Source: Luteimonas sp.
Lineage (GTDB): Bacteria > Pseudomonadota > Gammaproteobacteria > Xanthomonadales > Xanthomonadaceae
Length of the DNA stretch: 64,000 bases
NCBI GenBank assembly: GCA_024707405.1
Contig: JANPZU010000008.1
Span: 496,001-560,000 of the forward strand
Reading direction: 5' to 3'
Numbering within the stretch: position 1 is the stretch's first letter; each line of letters opens with the position of its first letter. Below are positions 2,830 to 54,371 of the stretch, in pieces. A program made the translations under genes and the position numbers. Under the pieces are notes generated by a model. It was not told the DNA's origin, did no database searches, and worked only from the letters and a program-made list of their open reading frames with translations.

Positions 2830-3486
2830 TTACGGAAACCCGATGCTCCCGCCGCCACCGCCCTGCGCGGGCGGTGAAGGCCGGCGATCCCCCGGCGGGG
2901 GAAGCGCCACGGCGACCGGCTCGCCTTTCCAGCGCCTCGTGCTGCGCTGGAAGAACAGGCTGTTGGGGATGCGCAGTACGCTGTCCCCGCCTTCGGCATG
3001 GGTTTCCTGCAGTGTCACGTAGATCAGGTTCATGTCGACCACTTGTCCGCGCAGGCCGGGACGATCGCCGCCTTCGAGCAGTTCGATGTGGTCGTGCAGG
3101 CGGAACGGACGGGTGATCAGCAACAGCAGCGCGCAGAAGAGGTTGGTCAGCACGCTCCAGGCCGCGAAGAACGCGACCGCCGCCACCGCCGCGAACCCGG
3201 TGAAGGCCGTCCACAGCACGCTTCCGGATACGCCGAAGCGCTCGAGCACCAGCAGCAGCGTGCCGAAACCGAGCACGAAACCGGCGATGCGCCGCGCGCT
3301 GACCGTGATCTCGATCGGCAAGTCGTAGCGCCTTGAAACGCGCGTGATCAGGCGACGCAGCAGCCAGCGCAACAGGAACGCCGCGACCAGGATCAGCACC
3401 ACCTGTACCAGCAGGGTGAACTCGACGAACCATGCCTGCAGCCAGGCTGGCGATTGCGTCTTCAGGGTCGCGAACATGTGCTCCAC
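2830..3486 (-). CDS. MscS-type mechanosensitive ion channel family protein
   Basis: The 218-residue inner-membrane protein resembles the core of small mechanosensitive channels, which open under membrane tension to release solutes. Hydrophobic segments fall at about 25-42, 66-83 and 90-128; the last, GFAAVAAVAFFAAWSV, is the pore-lining helix with Gly/Ala packing. It is followed by the beta domain (RPFRLHDHIEL... GQVVDMNLIYVTL) and a short Pro/Gly tail. It is smaller than E. coli MscS (286 residues) because the C-terminal alpha/beta vestibule is abbreviated. The start at 3486 is the first ATG; a second in-frame ATG lies three codons later. Confidence 0.85.
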   Translation of the reverse strand: MEHMFATLKTQSPAWLQAWFVEFTLLVQVVLILVAAFLLRWLLRRLITRVSRRYDLPIEITVSARRIAGFVLGFGTLLLVLERFGVSGSVLWTAFTGFAAVAAVAFFAAWSVLTNLFCALLLLITRPFRLHDHIELLEGGDRPGLRGQVVDMNLIYVTLQETHAEGGDSVLRIPNSLFFQRSTRRWKGEPVAVALPPPGDRRPSPPAQGGGGGSIGFP

Positions 3487-3585
3487 GTCGGGTGGGCCGA
3501 AGCGATCAGCCGTGCGCGGGCATTCTAGCCAACGACCGCGGGGAAGCGTCGCCCGCGGCCGGGCAAGGAGGATCCGGGTGGCGCG

Positions 3586-4848
3586 CTAGACATCGAATGC
3601 CAGCAGATCCAGTCCCGTGGCCGCGCGCACGACGCGCCGGTACAGCAAGGCGCCGTTGGCACCGTTGGTCAGCACCACCAGCGCGCGTTGCCGCGCGGCA
3701 TCGCCCAGCGCGAAGTTCTTGAAGATCCCGCTGTTGCTGCCGGAGTGGTGGAACACCGGGCCTTGCGCAGTGGCTTCGACGTTCCAGCCCAGCGTCTTGT
3801 CATTCCATCGGCCCGGCACGTCGATCTGCTTCGACAGCATGGCTTGCCGCGTCGACGGCTTCAGTTCCCACGAGGTCTCTTGCGTGCGCACCATCAGCGC
3901 CATGAAGCGGGCGTAGTCCCGCACCGTGCAGCGCAGGCTGGCGGCGGCATTGGCGACGATGTCGCCTGGCCAGTTCACCAGCCCCGCGGGCGTTGCCGCC
4001 TGCACGTCGGCCAATGCACGGGCGGCATCGCCGTAGCGCCAGTCCGACAGCGTGGAGCCATTGCCCTGGGCCACGCGCAGCGCGGCGTTCCATTGCTCGC
4101 GCAGCACCTGCGCGGGCGCGCCGGGCGTGTCGTCGCCGGGCGCGCGATGCCCATGCACCGAACGTGCGGCAACGTTCGCATCCCAGGCAAACGTGCTGTC
4201 GTGCATGCCAGCCGGTTCGAACAACAGGCGCCTTGCGGTGGCATCGAGGCTCTCGCCGGTGATCGCCTCCACCACCCGCTGCAGCCAGAAGATCGCCTCG
4301 CCGGAGTAGTCGATGCGCGTGCCGGGTTCGGCGGCAGGCTCGAGGCGCTCGTGTGCGGGATCCTTGCGCCAGTTCGGCAGGCCGGTGGAATGGCGCAGCA
4401 CGTCGCGCGCGGTGATGCGCGCCAGCCAGGGGTGCGTGCCGAGGTATTCCGGCCGCAGGGTGGCGACCAGCGGCCGGTCGAGATCGAGTTCGCCGCGATC
4501 CACCAGCTGCAGCACGAGGTAGGCGAACACCGGCTTGCTGAGCGAGGCGACTTCGAACAGGGTGTCGTCGGTGGCCGGCGTGCCCTGCGCGGCATCGGCC
4601 AGGCCGTAGACCTGCGACCATGAAGGTGCGCCCGCTTCCACCACCGCGATGCCGACGCCCGGCACGCCGAGCGCCTGCATCAGCCGAGGCAGGTCGGCGA
4701 GGAAGTCGTCCATCGGAACCCAGCCCGTGCGCGGCGGACATCCCGCCGTGGCGGTTGCGAGCCGCGGCGCGGCCAGCAGCGACAGGCCCGCCAGCCATCC
4801 GATCCGCAGGCACTGGCGACGCTGGAGGGACACCGCGGACGCGTTCAT
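3586..4848 (-). CDS. Serine hydrolase, class C beta-lactamase/DD-peptidase fold
   Basis: The 420-residue exported protein belongs to the serine beta-lactamase-like family, whose members include esterases, D-aminopeptidases and PBP-like enzymes. The N-terminus has RR (RRQCLR) followed by a hydrophobic stretch and Ala-rich cleavage region, compatible with a Tat signal. The nucleophile motif is SLSK in EVASLSKPVFAY; the tyrosine motif reads YSG instead of the usual YxN; the third motif is HSG in FHHSGSNSGIF. True cephalosporinase activity is not implied. The reading frame stays open far upstream into the divergent aldolase gene; I chose the ATG at 4848 because it starts at the signal peptide. 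Confidence 0.85.
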   Translation of the reverse strand: MNASAVSLQRRQCLRIGWLAGLSLLAAPRLATATAGCPPRTGWVPMDDFLADLPRLMQALGVPGVGIAVVEAGAPSWSQVYGLADAAQGTPATDDTLFEVASLSKPVFAYLVLQLVDRGELDLDRPLVATLRPEYLGTHPWLARITARDVLRHSTGLPNWRKDPAHERLEPAAEPGTRIDYSGEAIFWLQRVVEAITGESLDATARRLLFEPAGMHDSTFAWDANVAARSVHGHRAPGDDTPGAPAQVLREQWNAALRVAQGNGSTLSDWRYGDAARALADVQAATPAGLVNWPGDIVANAAASLRCTVRDYARFMALMVRTQETSWELKPSTRQAMLSKQIDVPGRWNDKTLGWNVEATAQGPVFHHSGSNSGIFKNFALGDAARQRALVVLTNGANGALLYRRVVRAATGLDLLAFDV

Positions 4849-46751: not shown

Positions 46752-49700
46752 TCAAAGTGGGCTGCCGCCGAGTTTCCAGGTGACCTGCAGGAAGTAGCTG
46801 CGGCCGACGCTGTCGAACCACGCGGTGTCGTAGTACGGATAGTTCGACCACGTCGGGTCGTGCGGCGGCATCTTGTCGAGCAGGTTGTTGACCGTCAGCG
46901 AGACGCGCAGGTGGTCGTTGATGTCGTAGCGTGCGCCGGCGTTGAAGCGCCAGCTGGCCGGCATCCAGGCATCGTCGGCATAGTTGGGGACGCGGCCGAG
47001 GTAGTTGCCGAACACGCTGGCGCCCCATGCGTTCTTGTCCCAGCTCACGCCCAGGTTGCCCTTCCTGCGCGGGAGCGCGGGGCTGTAGGTGTCGTAATGC
47101 AGCATGTCGAGCGTCGGGTCGCCCGGATACTGCCGGCTCTCGTGGCGATGTACCCAGGTGTAGTTGCCGGTGAAGCGGAAGTCGCCGGCATTGGCGGTCT
47201 GCATGCGGTAGTTGACGCTGGTGTCGATGCCCGAGGTTTCTTCGCTGGCGATGTTGATCGGGCCGAAGTGGACGCTGGTGATCACGCCGTCCTCGTCGCG
47301 GATCACGCGGGCGATCGCGTCCTGGCAGGTCGGAGAGTTGATGTCGACCTGCGTGCCGCTGTCGGTGACGCCGAGGCGGCAGCTGGCTTCGTCGCTGCGC
47401 AGCCGTTCGCGGCTCTGCGTCTGCACCTGGTTCATGACGCGGATCTTGTAGTAGTCCATCGACAAGTCGAAGCCGGTGAACGGCGACCACACGAAGCCGG
47501 CGGAGAACGACTTGCTGGTCTCCACGGCCAGCTCCATGTTGCCGCCGTAGACGTCGAAGGTGCTGACGTCGTAGCTGCCGTCGTCGTAGCAGTAGTCGTC
47601 GGTGGCGCCGGGTTCGGCGGTGCGGCAATCGTAGTAGTCGGTCGCGAAGCGGGTGCGGTAGTAGTCGCTGCCCGCGAACAGGTAGTGCATGTCGGGCGCG
47701 CGGAAACCGGTGCCGTAGGAACTGCGCACCAGCAGCGTGTCCACCGGCCGCCATTCGAGTCCCGCGCTCCAGGTGAACTTGCCCGGATCCTTGTTGCCGT
47801 ACGAATAGCGGTCGTAGCGGCCGGCCAGGCTGGCGTGCAGGGTGGAGAGCAACGGCAGGCGCAGTTCGCCCGCGGCGCTCCAGCGGTCGCGCTCGCCGCT
47901 GCCGTCGCCGTAGCGCGGGCCGTAGTAGGCGTCTTCGGTCAGTGCCAGCGGATCGGGATTGATGCGATACGACTGGCGGCCGTATTCCAGCGCGCCGGCA
48001 AAGCCGACGTCGCCAGCCGGCATCGTGAACAGCGAGGTGGTGTCGACGGTGAAGCCCAGGTTGTCGTTCTTGGCCTCCGGGTGCCATGTGGACATCGTCG
48101 AGATGGACTCGAACTCGGCTTGCGTCAGCGGCGTGAACATGCGCGCCGGATCGGGGGCGTAGATGGCATAGCCGCGGCCGGTGTAGCCCAGCAGTTCGCC
48201 CAGGAACAGCCGGTTGGCGGCTTCGGCGCGGATGCGCGGCATTTCAACGTCGGCCTTGTACTGGGAGTGGTTCCAGGCGGCTTCCCAGTTCCAGTCGTCG
48301 CCGAACATGCCCTTGAAGCCGGTGGTCACCGCCAGCGTCTTCTGCACGGTGGTGTTCATGCGGTTGCGCAGGCCGCCGGTTTCCTCGGGCGTGAACTGGC
48401 GCGACCAGATCTCGCGCTGGTCAGTGAGTGCGTTGTAGAAGATCTTGTTGCGGTAGTTGTCGAACGAATCCGGGTCGTGGAATTCCCAGCCCATGTGGTC
48501 GCTGGCCACGTCGTTGCCGTTGGTGCCGGTCAGCAGCCGCACGGTCTGGCGGCCAAGTTGCACGTCGGCGAACCACGACAGTTCGTCCGAGATGCGGTAC
48601 TCGAACGCGCCGTAAATGTTGCCGCCCTTGCGCTCGTTGGTGATGGTGCGATACGCGATGGCGCGCTCGCTGCCGCAGTAGGGCTCGCCGAAACGATCGA
48701 GGTGCAGGCCGGTCGTGCCTTCGTTCAAGCCGGACATCGCCGCGCAATCGTCCGCAGGCGCGAGGTTGGTGTCGTCTTCCCAGTTGAGGATCTGCGCGGT
48801 CAGGCGTGGCAGGCGCCTGCGATCCGTGGGCGCATCGAGCGTGGAGTCCTGGATGTCGCGCTCGAAGCCCCACAGCGGACGCTTGTCCAGCAGTTCCACG
48901 CCGACGATGCCGCTGAAGGCGCCGCGCTCGAAGCCGGTGGTCAGCGTGAGCCGGTGCGATTCGCCGCCGCCGCGTTCGGTATCGCCGTAGCGGTAGTCGA
49001 AGATGGTGCCGTCGACCGACTTCTTGAGGATGAAGTTGATCACGCCGGCCATCGCGTCGGAGCCGTACACGGCCGAGGCGCTGCCGGTGAGCACTTCGAC
49101 GCGATCGATCATGCCCAGCGGGATGTTGCCGATGTCGGTGAAGTTGCTGCGGCTGTTGAGCGGCAACGGGAAGTCGGCGATGCGGCGGCCGTTGATCAGC
49201 ACCAGCGTGTGGTTGGGGCCGAGGCCGCGCAGGTCGACGGCCTGCGCGCCGGGGGTCGACTGCGCACTGGTCGTGTTCTGCTGGCCTTGCACCGTGCCGC
49301 TGTTCTGGCTGAGCGAGCGCAGCACGTCGGGCACGCTGGTGAAGCCGCTGGCCTGGATCTGTTCGGCGGTGACCACGGTGATCGGTGCCGGGCCTTCGAT
49401 CTGCGAACGCGGGATGCGCGAACCGGTGACCTGCACGGTTTCCAGTTCGGTCGGTTGTTCCGGCGGCGCGGGAGGTGGCGGTGGTGGCGCAGGACGCGGC
49501 GCGGGCGGCGGTGTTTGCGTGGCTTGCGCCAGCACCGGTTGCTGCACGATCACCACCGCGCCCGAGGCGTCGTGGCGTGCGCTGAATCCGCTGCCCCTGA
49601 GCAGGCGATCGAGTGCCTGTTGCGGGGACAGGTCGCCGCTGGCGCCGGCCGTGCGCGTGCCTTGCAACTGGTCGGCGCGGTAGAGGATCTGCGTGCCCGA

Positions 49701-49847
49701 TTGCCGTGCGTAGGCATCGAGTGCCGAAGCGAGGTCGCCGGCGGGAATGTCGACCTTCGTCGAGGTCGGTGCCTGTGCATGCGCGGCGAGCGCGGCCGAA
49801 CAGGCGAGGGACAGGAGCAGCAGGCGGAGCGGACGTGGCGATTTCAA
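46752..49847 (-). CDS. TonB-dependent receptor with STN signalling domain
   Basis: A 1031-residue outer-membrane receptor. Signal peptide 1-24; STN domain (about 33-90) that signals to FecR; Pro-rich linker; plug (about 125-250, LRGLGPNHTLVLINGRR, SAVYGSDAMAGVINFIL); and a long barrel ending in a C-terminal beta strand (SYFLQVTWKLGG). The barrel is at the long end of the usual range. With the upstream FecR/sigma pair it forms a complete surface-signalling unit. Substrate is not readable from the sequence. Confidence 0.93.
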   Translation of the reverse strand: MKSPRPLRLLLLSLACSAALAAHAQAPTSTKVDIPAGDLASALDAYARQSGTQILYRADQLQGTRTAGASGDLSPQQALDRLLRGSGFSARHDASGAVVIVQQPVLAQATQTPPPAPRPAPPPPPPAPPEQPTELETVQVTGSRIPRSQIEGPAPITVVTAEQIQASGFTSVPDVLRSLSQNSGTVQGQQNTTSAQSTPGAQAVDLRGLGPNHTLVLINGRRIADFPLPLNSRSNFTDIGNIPLGMIDRVEVLTGSASAVYGSDAMAGVINFILKKSVDGTIFDYRYGDTERGGGESHRLTLTTGFERGAFSGIVGVELLDKRPLWGFERDIQDSTLDAPTDRRRLPRLTAQILNWEDDTNLAPADDCAAMSGLNEGTTGLHLDRFGEPYCGSERAIAYRTITNERKGGNIYGAFEYRISDELSWFADVQLGRQTVRLLTGTNGNDVASDHMGWEFHDPDSFDNYRNKIFYNALTDQREIWSRQFTPEETGGLRNRMNTTVQKTLAVTTGFKGMFGDDWNWEAAWNHSQYKADVEMPRIRAEAANRLFLGELLGYTGRGYAIYAPDPARMFTPLTQAEFESISTMSTWHPEAKNDNLGFTVDTTSLFTMPAGDVGFAGALEYGRQSYRINPDPLALTEDAYYGPRYGDGSGERDRWSAAGELRLPLLSTLHASLAGRYDRYSYGNKDPGKFTWSAGLEWRPVDTLLVRSSYGTGFRAPDMHYLFAGSDYYRTRFATDYYDCRTAEPGATDDYCYDDGSYDVSTFDVYGGNMELAVETSKSFSAGFVWSPFTGFDLSMDYYKIRVMNQVQTQSRERLRSDEASCRLGVTDSGTQVDINSPTCQDAIARVIRDEDGVITSVHFGPINIASEETSGIDTSVNYRMQTANAGDFRFTGNYTWVHRHESRQYPGDPTLDMLHYDTYSPALPRRKGNLGVSWDKNAWGASVFGNYLGRVPNYADDAWMPASWRFNAGARYDINDHLRVSLTVNNLLDKMPPHDPTWSNYPYYDTAWFDSVGRSYFLQVTWKLGGSPL

Positions 49848-49932
49848 GCGAGTACCCCCGGATGGCGCCGGCTGCGCCTTTCGCTATCAGGACGAACGAC
49901 GCCAAGAAATCCCCCCGTGCCTGTCGGCAGGG

Positions 49933-51009
49933 TCAGGGCGCGTGCAGGACGATGCGGTCGCGGCCGTAATCGGCGCGCACCGGGAAGCCTTGTTCGAGCA
50001 GGCGCACGAAGGCTTCCGCGTTCTCCCAGCGGAAGCTGCCGCCGATGCGCAGGTCGCCCACGGTGTCGTCGACGATGACGATCTTGCGCGCGTTGTAGCG
50101 GTTGAATTCGCTGGCGGCCTCGGACAGCGTGGTGTCGCGGAAGACCAGCAGGCCGCTGCGCCAGTCGACCAGTTGCTCGGCTTCGGCCAGCGGCACGGTC
50201 TTCACCAGCACGCCGTCGCGCCGGGCCAGCGCGATGCTGCCCGCGGGCAGCAGGGTGGCCGGTTGCGGCGTGCCGTCGCCGGGCAGGGCCTCCAGCCGCA
50301 CCACGCCTTCGGTCACCACCACGCGCAGGTCTTCGCCATCGCGCCGCACCGAGAAGCGCGTACCCACGGCCACCACCTGCCGGCCCGCGGCTTCGACCAC
50401 GAAGGGCCGGCGAGGATCCTTGGCGGCATCGAAGAACGCCTCGCCCCGCTGCAGGTCGATGCGTCGTTCGCGGCGCGACAGGCGCACGTCGATGCGGCTG
50501 TCGCTGGCCAGCGTGGTACGCGAACCATCCGCCAGCGCCACGGTGTCCATGCCGCCGAGCGCAGTGCCGTGCGACGACTCCTCCACCGCGCCGAATGCGT
50601 GCCAGCCCCAGCCGACCGCGAGTGCACACGCGGCGATGGCCGCCGTCGCAGCCAGGGGCCACGTGCGTCGGCGTTGTGGTTTGGCGCGGGGTGCGAAGAC
50701 CAGCGTGGCGGGATCGGGCGTGTCTGCATTCACCCGTTCGCGCGGAACGGAGGCCCATGCGCCACGCGGCGGGATGTCGCCCGGCGCGCCTGCGCCAAGC
50801 GCCTGCAGTCGCCCCGCGTGTTCCCACGCGGCCTGCAACCGCAGGAACGCGACCCGGTGCGCGGTGTCGCGCGACAGCCATGCCTCCAGCGCCGCGGCAT
50901 CGTCGTCCGTCCACGCGCCGGCGTCGCGGCGGGCCAGCCATTCCGCCGCGATGCGTTCGACGTCCCGGCCATGGCCGGTGGTCGGTTCAGTCGGCCTGGT
51001 GTCGTCCAT
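49933..51009 (-). CDS. FecR-type anti-sigma/signal transducer
   Basis: A 358-residue inner-membrane protein. Cytosolic N-terminal region with DUF4880-type motif (AAEWLARRDAGAWTDDD), membrane helix at about 116-135, and periplasmic FecR domain followed by an STN-like tail that contacts the receptor. Starts inside the sigma gene end (23-bp overlap). ATG 51009 preferred over 51051. Confidence 0.92.
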   Translation of the reverse strand: MDDTRPTEPTTGHGRDVERIAAEWLARRDAGAWTDDDAAALEAWLSRDTAHRVAFLRLQAAWEHAGRLQALGAGAPGDIPPRGAWASVPRERVNADTPDPATLVFAPRAKPQRRRTWPLAATAAIAACALAVGWGWHAFGAVEESSHGTALGGMDTVALADGSRTTLASDSRIDVRLSRRERRIDLQRGEAFFDAAKDPRRPFVVEAAGRQVVAVGTRFSVRRDGEDLRVVVTEGVVRLEALPGDGTPQPATLLPAGSIALARRDGVLVKTVPLAEAEQLVDWRSGLLVFRDTTLSEAASEFNRYNARKIVIVDDTVGDLRIGGSFRWENAEAFVRLLEQGFPVRADYGRDRIVLHAP

Positions 51010-51562
51010 CCGCTCGTCCCTGCGCGACCGTCGTCGGCGCATCCATGGCATCGCCGTCGCCGTAGAAACTCTCGGCGATCAGTCGCATGCCCTTGGCGAT
51101 GTGCTTTTCCACGGTCTTCTCACTGATCCCGAGTCGCATGGCGACCTCCTTCTGCGACAGATCCTCGACCCGACGCAGCCACACCACCTCGCGGCAGCGG
51201 TCGGGCAGGCGGTCGAAGGCATCGGCCAGCCGGCGGAGGATCTGCCTGCCGCCGCACCAGCGTTCCGGCGACAGGTCATCCACCAAGACGTTCGAGGGCT
51301 CGAAATCACCCATCGGCTCGATCGAGACCACCTTGGCGCGGCGGGCGCGGTCGGCCAGCAGGTGGCGGGCGGCGGCGAACAGGAAGGGCTTGGGTTGCAG
51401 CGGCAGCGACTTCGCGGCCGACTCGTACACGCGCGCGTAGATTTCCTGGCGCAGGTCGTGGATCTCGTCGCGGTGCGGCCAGTTGCGCAACAGGTAGCGC
51501 ACCAGCGCCGCCTCGTGGACGAGCACCTGTTCGGTGAACCATCGGTCGAGTTCGGCCGCCAT
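50987..51562 (-). CDS. FecI-type ECF sigma factor
   Basis: A 191-residue ECF sigma factor, with region 2 (LRNWPHRDEIHDLRQEIYARVYE) and region 4 helix-turn-helix (LSQKEVAMRLGISEKTVEKHI). It is released by FecR when the receptor binds ligand and then activates the receptor gene. ATG 51562 chosen; a longer frame starts in the intergenic gap. Confidence 0.92.
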   Translation of the reverse strand: MAAELDRWFTEQVLVHEAALVRYLLRNWPHRDEIHDLRQEIYARVYESAAKSLPLQPKPFLFAAARHLLADRARRAKVVSIEPMGDFEPSNVLVDDLSPERWCGGRQILRRLADAFDRLPDRCREVVWLRRVEDLSQKEVAMRLGISEKTVEKHIAKGMRLIAESFYGDGDAMDAPTTVAQGRADGRHQAD

Positions 51563-51671
51563 GGCGGGCAACATAGCCGATCGCGGGCCGCCGCGACCGG
51601 TGCGGGCGGGGGAATTGCCGCCGCCGTTCGTCACAACCAGCATTGCCCGCATGGGCGGAGGAAGCGAAACG

Positions 51672-53600
51672 ATGAAGCAGGGGATCGTCAGGTCGATGGT
51701 GTTGGCGCTTTGCCTGTTGCATGCGGGGGCCGCGGCTGCGTCCGACCTGCAGCGTCATTTCATCGGCGACGCCGCGCTGCCCACGCCGGGCAAGCCGGCG
51801 CCGGGCCTGCTGCTGATGGGCGGCGGCGACCGCAACTTCGATGCGCTGCGCTGGTTCCTCGCCAAGGCCGGCAACGGCCACGTGGTGGTCTTGCGCGCTT
51901 CGATGGGCGGCGAGATCGGCGAGGAGTTCCACGACGAAGTGGGAGGTGTCGCGTCGGTGGAGACCTTCGTGTTCACCAGTCGCGACCAGGCCACCGATGC
52001 GCGCATGCTCGCCAGCCTGCGCAAGGCCGACGGCATCTTCATCGCCGGCGGCGACCAGTCGCGCTACGTGCGCTACTGGCGCGGCACGCCGGTCGCCGAG
52101 GCGCTGGACGCACACGTCAAGGCGGGCAAGCCGCTGGGCGGCACCAGCGCCGGTCTGGCGATGCTGGGCGAGTTTCTCTACGGCGCGATGGATGGCGGCA
52201 GCCTGCGCAGTCCCGCTGCACTTGCCGATCCGTTGGGCGACGGCAACACCATCGAACGCGAGTTCCTGCATCTCGACCTGCTGCGTGGCGTGGTCACCGA
52301 CACGCATTTCCGCGAGCGCAACCGCCTGGGACGGTTGGTCGCCTTCGTCGCCAAATCCGAAGCATTGGCCCGCGACGGTCGCGTAATCATCGGCCTCGGC
52401 GTGGACGAGGATGCGGCGGTTGCCGTGGAAGGCAATGGCCGTGCGCGCGTGTTCGCCACTGCACCCGGTGCAGGTGCACTGGTGGTGCGTGGCGGTTTCA
52501 CGCAGCAGCAGGAAGAAGACGAAGCGATGAACCTCGATCATGTGGAGACGATTGGCGTCGGCGTGGAGTCGGTGCTGTACCTGCCGTCCGGGCGCGTCGA
52601 CAAGCCGATGTCCAGGCGTGACTACGCCGTGCGCGATGGCGTGCTGGTGGCGTTGCAGTCGCCGGTGCTGGCGATCCATGGCGGCGCCGGTGTCGAACGC
52701 GGCGACCTCACGCCGGAAGAGGAGGTTGCGGCACGACAGGCACTGGAGGCGGCGCTGCGTGCGGGCCATGCGGAGTTGCAGGCGGGCAAGCCGGCACTCG
52801 ATGCGGTGTCTGCCGCGATCGTGGTGCTCGAGGATGCGCCGATGTTCAACGCCGCGCGCGGCGCGGTGTTCACCCACGATGGCCGCAACGAGCTCGACAC
52901 CTCGATCATGGATGGCGCCAGCGGCAAGGCCGGCGCAGCAGCAGTCCTGCATCGCGTGAAGAATCCGATCCTGCTGGCGCGCGCCATCATGGAACGCTCG
53001 CGCCACGTGATGATGGTCGGCGAAGGTGCCGAAATCTTTGCCGGCGAGCACGGCATCACGCTGGTCGATCCGTCCTACTTCCGCACCGAGAAGCGCTGGC
53101 AGCAACTGCAGCGCGCGCTGGACGCCGAGAAGACACCGCAAACGCAGGTCGACACCGGCGGCAAGGCCTACTTCGGCACCGTGGGTGCGGTCGCGCTGGA
53201 CAACAACGGCCACCTCGCCGCGGGCACGTCCACCGGCGGCATGACCAACAAGCGCTACGGCCGCGTCGGCGACTCGCCGATCATCGGTGCGGGCACCTGG
53301 GCCGACGACAACTGCGCGGTCTCGGGCACCGGCTGGGGCGAGTACTACATCCGCACCGCTGCCGCGCATGAAATCTGCGCGCGCGTGCGCCTGGCCGGTG
53401 ATGGCATCGAACGCGCCGCCGACCGCGTGATCAACCGCGTCATTCCCGCCGCCGGTGGCGATGGCGGCGCGATTGCGCTCGATGCCGCGGGCACCGTCGC
53501 GTTCCCGTTCAATACGCCCGGCATGTACCGCGGCTGGATCGGCGCCGATGGCGTGCCGCACGTGGCGGTGTACGCCGAGGATGACTTGCCGATGCCGTAG
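51672..53600 (+). CDS. Fusion of cyanophycinase and isoaspartyl peptidase/asparaginase
   Basis: A 642-residue exported protein with two enzymes in one chain. After the signal peptide (cleavage near residue 24), residues about 45-320 match cyanophycinase (S51 family): GGDRNFDALRWF, nucleophile S159 in GGTSAGLAML, and a catalytic-region histidine in DTHFRERNR. Residues 331-642 match plant-type isoaspartyl peptidase/L-asparaginase (Ntn hydrolase): AIHGGAG (335-340) and T503 in FGTVGAVALDNNGHLAAGTSTGG, the autoprocessing threonine. The first domain cuts cyanophycin into beta-Asp-Arg dipeptides; the second could split them. GGAGGAAG precedes the ATG. It is divergent from the FecI-like sigma gene with about 109 bp between. 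Confidence 0.92.
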   Translation: MKQGIVRSMVLALCLLHAGAAAASDLQRHFIGDAALPTPGKPAPGLLLMGGGDRNFDALRWFLAKAGNGHVVVLRASMGGEIGEEFHDEVGGVASVETFVFTSRDQATDARMLASLRKADGIFIAGGDQSRYVRYWRGTPVAEALDAHVKAGKPLGGTSAGLAMLGEFLYGAMDGGSLRSPAALADPLGDGNTIEREFLHLDLLRGVVTDTHFRERNRLGRLVAFVAKSEALARDGRVIIGLGVDEDAAVAVEGNGRARVFATAPGAGALVVRGGFTQQQEEDEAMNLDHVETIGVGVESVLYLPSGRVDKPMSRRDYAVRDGVLVALQSPVLAIHGGAGVERGDLTPEEEVAARQALEAALRAGHAELQAGKPALDAVSAAIVVLEDAPMFNAARGAVFTHDGRNELDTSIMDGASGKAGAAAVLHRVKNPILLARAIMERSRHVMMVGEGAEIFAGEHGITLVDPSYFRTEKRWQQLQRALDAEKTPQTQVDTGGKAYFGTVGAVALDNNGHLAAGTSTGGMTNKRYGRVGDSPIIGAGTWADDNCAVSGTGWGEYYIRTAAAHEICARVRLAGDGIERAADRVINRVIPAAGGDGGAIALDAAGTVAFPFNTPGMYRGWIGADGVPHVAVYAEDDLPMP

Positions 53601-53629: not shown

Positions 53630-53651
53630 CATGGCGACGGGGAACACAGCG

Positions 53652-54371
53652 ATGACGCGATGGATATGTGGCGTTGGATTGGCTTTGACTATTGGCTCGG
53701 TGGCGGCGAGCGAGTCCACAGCTGCCCCGGTGAAGTTCTGGGCGAATGCGCGCGTATCCATTGATCAGCACGGCACACCGCAACGTGTGGAGCCGAGCGT
53801 GAAGCTCGGCGAAGTTGTGCGGACGCTTGTCGAACAACGGGTATTACGCTGGCGTTTCGAGCCTGCGGTTGTCGAAGGCCAGGCCAAAGCGGGAGTTACA
53901 TACGTCTTCCTGGCGGGTTGCGCGGTTCCGAGCAGTGACGGAACCTTCGATGTCGCGATGGCGTTTACGGGTCATGGCCCCGGCCCCGTTGATGGCGAAC
54001 TCATTCGCCGGCCTCCTGCGTACCCACCGAATGCCGCGCGTGCCGGAAACGAGGGCCGCTTTCGCGTCACGATGAGAGTTGGAACCGATGGCAAGGCAAC
54101 GCTGGAGTCGGTCGATGCCATCGAAGGCAATGCCAGGCCTTTCAGAGAAGCGTTACGTGCTTGGGTTGGCTCGCGACTTTACGTTCCAGAAGAGGTGGAT
54201 GGAATGCCAGTGTCTACCTCTATTTCGAGCGAGGTGGATTTCTGGTTGCCTCCCCCCGGGGAGACGGGGCGAGCGCCCGACCCGACGACTTGCGAAGGTA
54301 TCCTCGCGGAGGCTGTAGAGAAGTCTTCGACGACATCCGACTCGCCGTTCAAGCCGCTCGATACGGATTGA
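53652..54371 (+). CDS. TonB C-terminal-like exported protein
   Basis: A 239-residue secreted or periplasmic protein with signal peptide (about 1-20) and a C-terminal region resembling the TonB energy-transducer domain (PPAYPPNAARAGNEGRFRVTMRVGTDGKATLESV). It lacks the N-terminal transmembrane anchor with Pro-rich spacer of TonB proper. It follows the cyanophycinase fusion and may share its transcript. GC content is lower. ATG 53652 preferred to 53631, whose upstream lies in a hairpin. Confidence 0.7.
   Translation: MTRWICGVGLALTIGSVAASESTAAPVKFWANARVSIDQHGTPQRVEPSVKLGEVVRTLVEQRVLRWRFEPAVVEGQAKAGVTYVFLAGCAVPSSDGTFDVAMAFTGHGPGPVDGELIRRPPAYPPNAARAGNEGRFRVTMRVGTDGKATLESVDAIEGNARPFREALRAWVGSRLYVPEEVDGMPVSTSISSEVDFWLPPPGETGRAPDPTTCEGILAEAVEKSSTTSDSPFKPLDTD

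Follow-up and report, generated by a model that had tools for sequence, protein, structure and literature searches.

The fused gene and its surroundings

The window, that is, the whole stretch of 64,000 nucleotides that was analysed, contains a gene predicted to encode a single exported polypeptide in which a cyanophycinase of peptidase family S51 is joined to an isoaspartyl peptidase of the IaaA (Ntn-hydrolase) type (Table 1). Genes for an ECF sigma factor, a FecR-type sigma regulator and a TonB-dependent receptor lie beside it in divergent orientation, and one promoter-like motif precedes both the fused gene and the receptor gene.

Table 1. Positions of the genes, domains, key residues and motifs at the locus
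Feature	Position	Strand	Basis
Fused gene, exported cyanophycinase (S51) and isoaspartyl peptidase (IaaA/Ntn), 642 aa	51672-53600	+	ORF, domains, residue alignments
Predicted Sec-type signal peptide, residues 1-23, without lipobox	51672-51740	+	Sequence and hydrophobicity scan; cleavage site inferred
S51 cyanophycinase domain, about residues 24-325	51741-52646	+	Pfam PF03575; Foldseek to 7uqw/3en0/7uqv, target TM 0.76-0.82
S159, proposed S51 nucleophile (CphB S132)	52146-52148	+	Alignment
D210 T211 H212 R216 R218 R221, catalytic His and pocket (CphB D172 Q173 H174 R178 R180 R183)	52299-52334	+	Alignment
E246, third S51 triad member (CphB E201)	52407-52409	+	Alignment
IaaA (plant-type asparaginase, Ntn) domain, residues 331-633	52662-53570	+	Pfam PF01112; Foldseek to EcAIII precursor 2zak, target TM 0.96
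G502-T503, predicted autocleavage site and N-terminal nucleophile	53175-53180	+	Alignment
Promoter-like motif GGGGA-N12-GTTCGTC, 39 bases before the fusion ATG	51609-51632	+	Upstream alignment, pattern scan
Same promoter-like motif before the TonB receptor gene	49891-49914	-	Pattern scan; same place in other loci
ECF sigma factor (ORF as listed; the real start may lie further inside)	50987-51652	-	Model matches
FecR-type sigma regulator	49933-51051	-	Model matches
TonB-dependent receptor with STN signalling domain	46752-49847	-	Model matches

The fused gene is one uninterrupted frame ending in a stop. Pfam analysis detected Asparaginase_2 at residues 331-633 (E 2.3e-105) and Peptidase_S51 at residues 110-255 (E 3.6e-10), the two families that an earlier note on this DNA had named, and only a few residues lie between the end of the S51 part and the start of the IaaA part. 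The coordinates given in that note, and the nucleophiles it had placed at S159 in GGTSAG and T503 in GTVGAV, were exact. Foldseek comparison of predicted structures grouped the S51 half with cyanophycinases and the Ntn half with the E. coli EcAIII precursor, in line with its assignments. The full-length model (residue numbers of which, plus 22, give the protein numbering) had a pTM of 0.65, so nothing was deduced from it on the relative placement of the domains or on channelling.

The signal peptide was called with a crude hydrophobicity scan of our own rather than with SignalP. The same scan found a hydrophobic N-terminal stretch in the 65 fused sequences compared, except for the truncated one of locus L040; these 65 include several near-copies, and two of them are the window itself. 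A lipobox-like string was flagged in two fused sequences with an identical leader (L027 and L118).

The S51 half

The first half carries the catalytic and substrate-binding residues of a cyanophycinase. A search of PDB sequences matched S159 to the serine in the GTSAG motif of Synechocystis CphB (3en0), and S159, H212 and E246 align with the Ser-His-Glu triad S132, H174 and E201 of CphB. Residues of CphB needed for activity or forming the pocket are Gln101, Ser132, Asp172, Gln173, Arg178, Arg180 and Arg183 (PMC3235067, in the parts covered here). Q129, D210, R216, R218 and R221 correspond to Gln101, Asp172, Arg178, Arg180 and Arg183, and the sole change in the pocket is a threonine (T211) at the place of Gln173. 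Threonine at this position is also reported, in the same parts of that paper, for CphE, a cyanophycinase that acts outside the cell and whose activity was measured (PMC3235067). The two features of the CphE type, an export signal and Thr for Gln173, thus occur together in the fusion.

These residues are strongly conserved. Q129, S159, D210, T211, H212, R216, R218 and R221 were invariant in all 64 fused sequences that reach the region, and E246 was present in 62 of the 64. Gln replaces this catalytic Glu in L136 and L142, fusions of one genus, the first half of which may be altered or inactive judging from this substitution. At the Gln173 position the split-gene relatives (14 sequences) had Thr in six, Ser in seven and Gln in one, and the cytosolic CphB of the window's genome had Gln. 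The motifs G-T-S-A-G and D-[ST]-H-F-..-R-.-R were present in five fusions from outside the class, in a comparison that did not extend to the Glu position.

Modelled alone, the S51 domain had a pLDDT of 91.7 and a pTM of 0.91. The nine best chains in its fold search were the cyanophycinases 7uqw, 3en0 and 7uqv, and these were followed by eleven peptidase E-like entries (target TM 0.57-0.67). Two observations count against a cyanophycinase: the identity to solved members is about 21%, and the score against the NCBIfam equivalog TIGR02069 was 100.4 bits, below the cut-off of 126.6. The S51 protein of the split-gene locus L042 scored 96 bits, likewise below the cut-off, and the genome's own cytosolic CphB scored 244 bits, above it. 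Peptidase E was considered as another identity for this half and judged less likely, since it ranked under cyanophycinase in NCBIfam (17.6 vs. 100.4 bits), in the PDB sequence search and in the fold search.

The IaaA half

The closest solved relative of the second half is the E. coli IaaA/EcAIII precursor 2zak (48% identity). The half passed the Pfam PF01112 cut-off with 352.6 bits (cut-off 27) and stayed below that of the NCBIfam equivalog NF007589 (302.6 vs. 567 bits). T503 paired with the first residue of the beta chain in solved enzymes of the IaaA family, and the cleavage and active-site residues G502, T503, T521, R531, D534, T553 and G554 were all found. Together with N393, these correspond to EcAIII N67, G178, T179, T197, R207, D210, T230 and G231, whose roles we take to be the ones familiar for that enzyme, and all eight were invariant in the 65 fused sequences. 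Both active sites, which the earlier note had read as intact, thus align with the catalytic sets of solved enzymes.

That note had left open whether the Ntn part still processes itself and releases its C-terminal half. The only stretch of the model with a pLDDT below 50 is residues 490-497, just N-terminal of G502-T503, as would be expected of a flexible loop before cleavage. In IaaA enzymes the two subunits normally stay together after cleavage, and the C-terminal half is therefore expected to be retained as the beta subunit. By this analogy, the Ntn half probably cleaves itself without releasing its C-terminal half. The masses computed for the predicted products are 50.7 kDa for the S51-alpha chain and 14.2 kDa for the beta chain.

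Next to the substrate-binding Thr-Gly, the fusion has W555 (53334-53336) where EcAIII has T232. Trp occupies this position in 64 of the 65 fused sequences and in 14 of 14 split ones, but in only 31 of 63 IaaA sequences without an S51 partner, and is a possible mark of specificity from its distribution. The genome encodes a second IaaA (L135, about 3450-4382 on the minus strand of C2) with a signal-like leader and about 57% identity to the fused IaaA domain.

Since IaaA enzymes are promiscuous, the presence of this half does not in itself prove a role with cyanophycin. An unlikely alternative is that the protein is a broad exported isoaspartyl or beta-aspartyl peptidase, the S51 half of which cuts other Asp- or isoAsp-peptides. 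IaaA and IadA proteins clustered with cyanophycin genes are reported to be unspecific for beta-Asp-Arg (PMC10206079, in the parts covered here), the order has many IaaA genes with no S51 half, and the TIGR02069 shortfall points the same way. Against this alternative speak the pocket, whose residues tied to cyanophycin binding are preserved except for a threonine shared with CphE, and the placing of cyanophycinases above peptidase E in the fold and NCBIfam searches.

Receptor, FecR and sigma factor genes

The neighbouring genes form a set of the Fec type, an STN-bearing receptor, a FecR and an ECF sigma factor occurring together. Residues 7-108 of the receptor, its STN region, match the FecA model, and the regulator scores against the model of the ferric citrate FecR.

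The receptor was the most constant neighbour of the fusion. It adjoined the fused gene in 31 of the 32 loci with sufficient flanks, comprising 16 of 17 named loci, 10 of 10 further loci of the order and 5 of 5 loci outside the class. Among the 18 named fused loci, 16 had an adjoining receptor and 15 had sigma factor and FecR as well; L040, where the contig ends inside the gene, was left out of this judgement. Locus L038 had a receptor with no match to sigma factor or FecR. In L034 (1-4330), the 4.3 kb upstream of the fusion hold other genes with no match to receptor, FecR or sigma factor, which shows that the enzyme is not bound to the cassette. Receptor, FecR and sigma factor were all present in the 10 further fused loci of the order. 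No sigma factor or FecR match was obtained at the five loci outside the class, where wide flanks were available at one locus only, and six Stenotrophomonas split pairs had kept the receptor and not the sigma factor and FecR.

The window's receptor is 72-80% identical to those of L027, L029, L030, L032, L036, L049, L050, L055 and L064, a scattered set that includes most of the Stenotrophomonas split pairs. With the receptor that occupies this place in most other fused loci it shares only about 50% identity. These values suggest an exchange of two receptor types at a single site.

A promoter-like motif shared by receptor and enzyme genes

Alignment of the regions upstream of 19 hand-picked fused genes revealed a conserved GGGGGA...GTTCGTC block, the shape of which resembles ECF promoters. 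The pattern GGGGA-N(11-13)-GTTCGTC occurs exactly twice in the window (0.05 expected), once before the fusion and once before the receptor gene. Genome-wide it has three sites, close to the two for reversed-pattern controls, so the count means little and the positions carry the argument. The third genomic copy lies at C7:61283-61307 (+ strand, L162), where no gene related to the locus was recognised in the ORF list.

The motif was counted in 38 loci longer than 6 kb that match both receptor and S51, a set to which L034 and the window do not belong. All 34 exact matches lay before the enzyme (17) or the receptor (17). With one mismatch allowed, all 31 sigma-bearing loci had the motif at the receptor and 27 of them had it at the enzyme; the seven loci without a sigma factor had it at neither place. 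A further 17 matches were scattered over the 547 kb of the sigma-bearing loci, which corresponds to a chance expectation of about 0.15 of 31 loci at either place (17 per 1.09 million positions, 320 positions per site). When two mismatches were allowed, all 31 loci with a sigma factor had it before both genes and one of the seven without had it before the receptor, while scattered matches rose to 210 and 25, respectively. The pattern was derived from the alignment upstream of fused genes, so the enzyme-side counts are partly circular and the receptor side provides the independent test; many loci are close relatives, and the counts are therefore not independent events. The simplest reading of these positions is that the local sigma factor would drive both the receptor and the enzyme genes.

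An ordinary iron-type signalling system that is a neighbour by chance is an improbable account of the cassette. The FecA and ferric citrate FecR matches are what such a system would give, and the L034 fusion does without the cassette, but across loci the receptor and the enzyme share an upstream motif that is not found where the sigma factor is absent, and the receptor stays beside the enzyme even without sigma factor and FecR.

Source of the polymer

Apart from the exported fusion, the window's genome has an ordinary cytosolic set of cphB, cphA1 and a shorter cphA-like gene (C8:294152-299422, L134). Among the 52 carriers listed from the sample of the order described below, some of them incomplete assemblies, 17 had a CphA1 match at 1e-200 and 35 had none; the substrate of the latter most likely comes from outside, allowing for the incomplete assemblies. 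Carriage of the fusion showed no association with CphA1 in either direction in this sample (odds ratio 1.26, p 0.51, for the 52 listed carriers), and a tie between the fusion and the cell's own cyanophycin synthesis was rejected as unsupported. It is very unlikely that the enzyme serves to recycle the cell's own polymer, set free when sister cells lyse, and not that of other species: the cphB-cphA1 pair of this genome would allow it, but the 35 listed carriers without a CphA1 match, even with some assemblies incomplete, speak against it.

Distribution and history of the fusion

The fusion recurs widely in the order. It was detected at full length in 7 of 61 genomes searched as relatives, and as one frame without a stop in at least 52 of 398 genomes of an even sample of the order (the window's own genome is included in both). 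At a threshold of 1e-115, at which weaker fusions would be missed, it was found in 2 of 369 genomes of the class and in 3 of 398 genomes of the phylum, one of them outside the class; the order of that outside carrier had it in 5 of 200 genomes. Because at least 52 genomes have the same single frame, free of internal stops, a frameshift or assembly join that would have made two genes into one is excluded. A chance open frame or other artefact therefore has a negligible probability, no support for it having been found beyond the many long frames on both strands of the window, and both domains being conserved.

Of 80 named loci, 18 were fused (17 of them complete, since a contig end cuts off most of the S51 half of L040), 13 had the two genes side by side and 49 had no S51 match beside the IaaA gene. 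Named carriers of the fusion include Luteimonas, Pseudoxanthomonas, Thermomonas, Vulcaniibacterium, Arenimonas composti, Lysobacter ruishenii and Xanthomonas sp. XNM01, and split pairs were found in Stenotrophomonas, Lysobacter, Tahibacter and Pedobacter. In 14 split loci the S51 and IaaA genes generally each had a signal-like leader of their own; that of the Pedobacter S51 protein resembles the lipoprotein type. The fused architecture is fairly common in this order and not unique.

A single clade of all fusions was rejected on the IaaA domain (p-AU 5e-6) and not on the S51 domain (p-AU 0.097), and a single clade of the Lysobacterales fusions alone was rejected on both (p 4e-4 and 2e-7). These tests used 55 and 40 hand-picked sequences from larger trees; the IaaA tree omitted L102, which is short, and 23 sequences more than 97% identical to others, and the second tree omitted the long branches L101, L099 and L093. 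Repeated fusion, an ancestral fusion with later splits and losses, or transfer are all possible histories. In the tree, some IaaA genes that lack S51 branch from among the fused genes. At L045, L053 and L054 the same chromosomal site, flanked by DUF2059 on one side and LysR/malate synthase-like/isocitrate lyase genes on the other, holds an IaaA gene with a leader and gives no match to S51, receptor, FecR or sigma factor, an arrangement that reads as loss.

Proposed function and relation to known systems

We consider it likely that the gene product is a Sec-exported enzyme that degrades cyanophycin in two steps and belongs to a self-inducing scavenging locus, its activities and signalling being read from sequence comparison. 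The N-terminal CphE-type S51 domain would cut beta-Asp-Arg dipeptides from cyanophycin, and the IaaA-type domain, after cleaving itself at G502-T503 into alpha and beta chains that stay attached, would split beta-Asp-Arg to aspartate and arginine. The TonB receptor, through its signalling domain, would bind a ligand derived from cyanophycin, upon which FecR would free the ECF sigma factor for transcription of receptor and enzyme from their matching promoters. This arrangement suggests a dedicated system for consuming the nitrogen stores of other microbes. A more specific proposal, made only tentatively, is a cyanophycin-sensing regulon in which the FecA-like receptor reads a polymer fragment instead of an iron carrier and one enzyme passes beta-Asp-Arg between its active sites.

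The compartment of digestion bears on the role of the receptor. The type II secretin present in the window's genome and the extracellular location of CphE (PMC3235067, in the parts covered) favour digestion outside the cell. The receptor persists even where the switch is absent, which speaks for soluble fragments being taken up and then digested in the periplasm, and we lean slightly toward the periplasm. Free amino acids made outside would leave the TonB receptor without an evident cargo, which is a point against the scavenging locus. The cytosolic cphB-cphA1 cluster of the window's genome also counts against it, as does the finding that carriers of the fusion are no poorer in CphA1 than the rest of the order.

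Each half has well-described relatives. CphE of Pseudomonas alcaligenes and P. anguilliseptica shares the export signal, the S51 triad, the pocket and the Thr for Gln173, but is a mature protein of 43.6 kDa for which the parts of PMC3235067 covered here mention no isoaspartyl peptidase half; this comparison is by description and not by alignment. CphB (3en0, 7uqw) has the fold, catalytic triad and Arg pocket of the S51 half, but it is intracellular (PMC3235067, same parts), lacks a second domain and has Gln173. E. coli IaaA/EcAIII shares fold, catalytic and cleavage residues with the Ntn half; it is a stand-alone enzyme, whereas in the exported fusion the N-terminus of the alpha chain is joined to S51 and T232 is replaced. 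The adjacent cyanophycinase and IaaA genes of Stenotrophomonas, Lysobacter and Tahibacter have the same domains in the same order with the same kind of TonB receptor next door, but make two proteins, each with a leader resembling a signal peptide. In Citromicrobium sp. JLT1363 a TonB receptor lies near a cyanophycinase gene and cyanophycin was proposed as substrate (PMC3400609); the parts of that paper covered mention neither a fusion nor a sigma/FecR switch. FecA-FecR-FecI signalling has the same three components as the locus, but here the enzyme is a second target and the proposed ligand is not an iron carrier.

The published accounts covered, in part, describe the degradation of cyanophycin to amino acids as the work of two enzymes. 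The words fusion and fused are absent from the main text of PMC10206079, and no description of the fusion or of a sigma/FecR switch for cyanophycin was found in the covered parts of PMC10206079, PMC3235067, PMC3400609, PMC4742617 and PMC12661447 (mostly open literature, supplements excluded). The locus can be described as a new joining of two known enzymes, placed under a putative Fec-type switch, absence from the literature being weak evidence of novelty. A single exported protein for both steps would explain how scavengers capture the full nitrogen of the polymer without leaking dipeptide, and would offer an enzyme ready for use in the conversion of cyanophycin to arginine and aspartate. The receptor, the switch and the motif at two promoters make the detection and uptake of another organism's nitrogen store directly testable. 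If the regulon reading is true, heterotrophs would have a nitrogen-polymer counterpart of carbohydrate utilisation loci.

One more gene at the locus deserves mention. A gene for a protein with a TonB C-terminal domain (53631-54371, + strand), for which no match was obtained at 1e-8 in the loci surveyed for receptors, begins 30 bases past the stop of the fusion and may serve the receptor.
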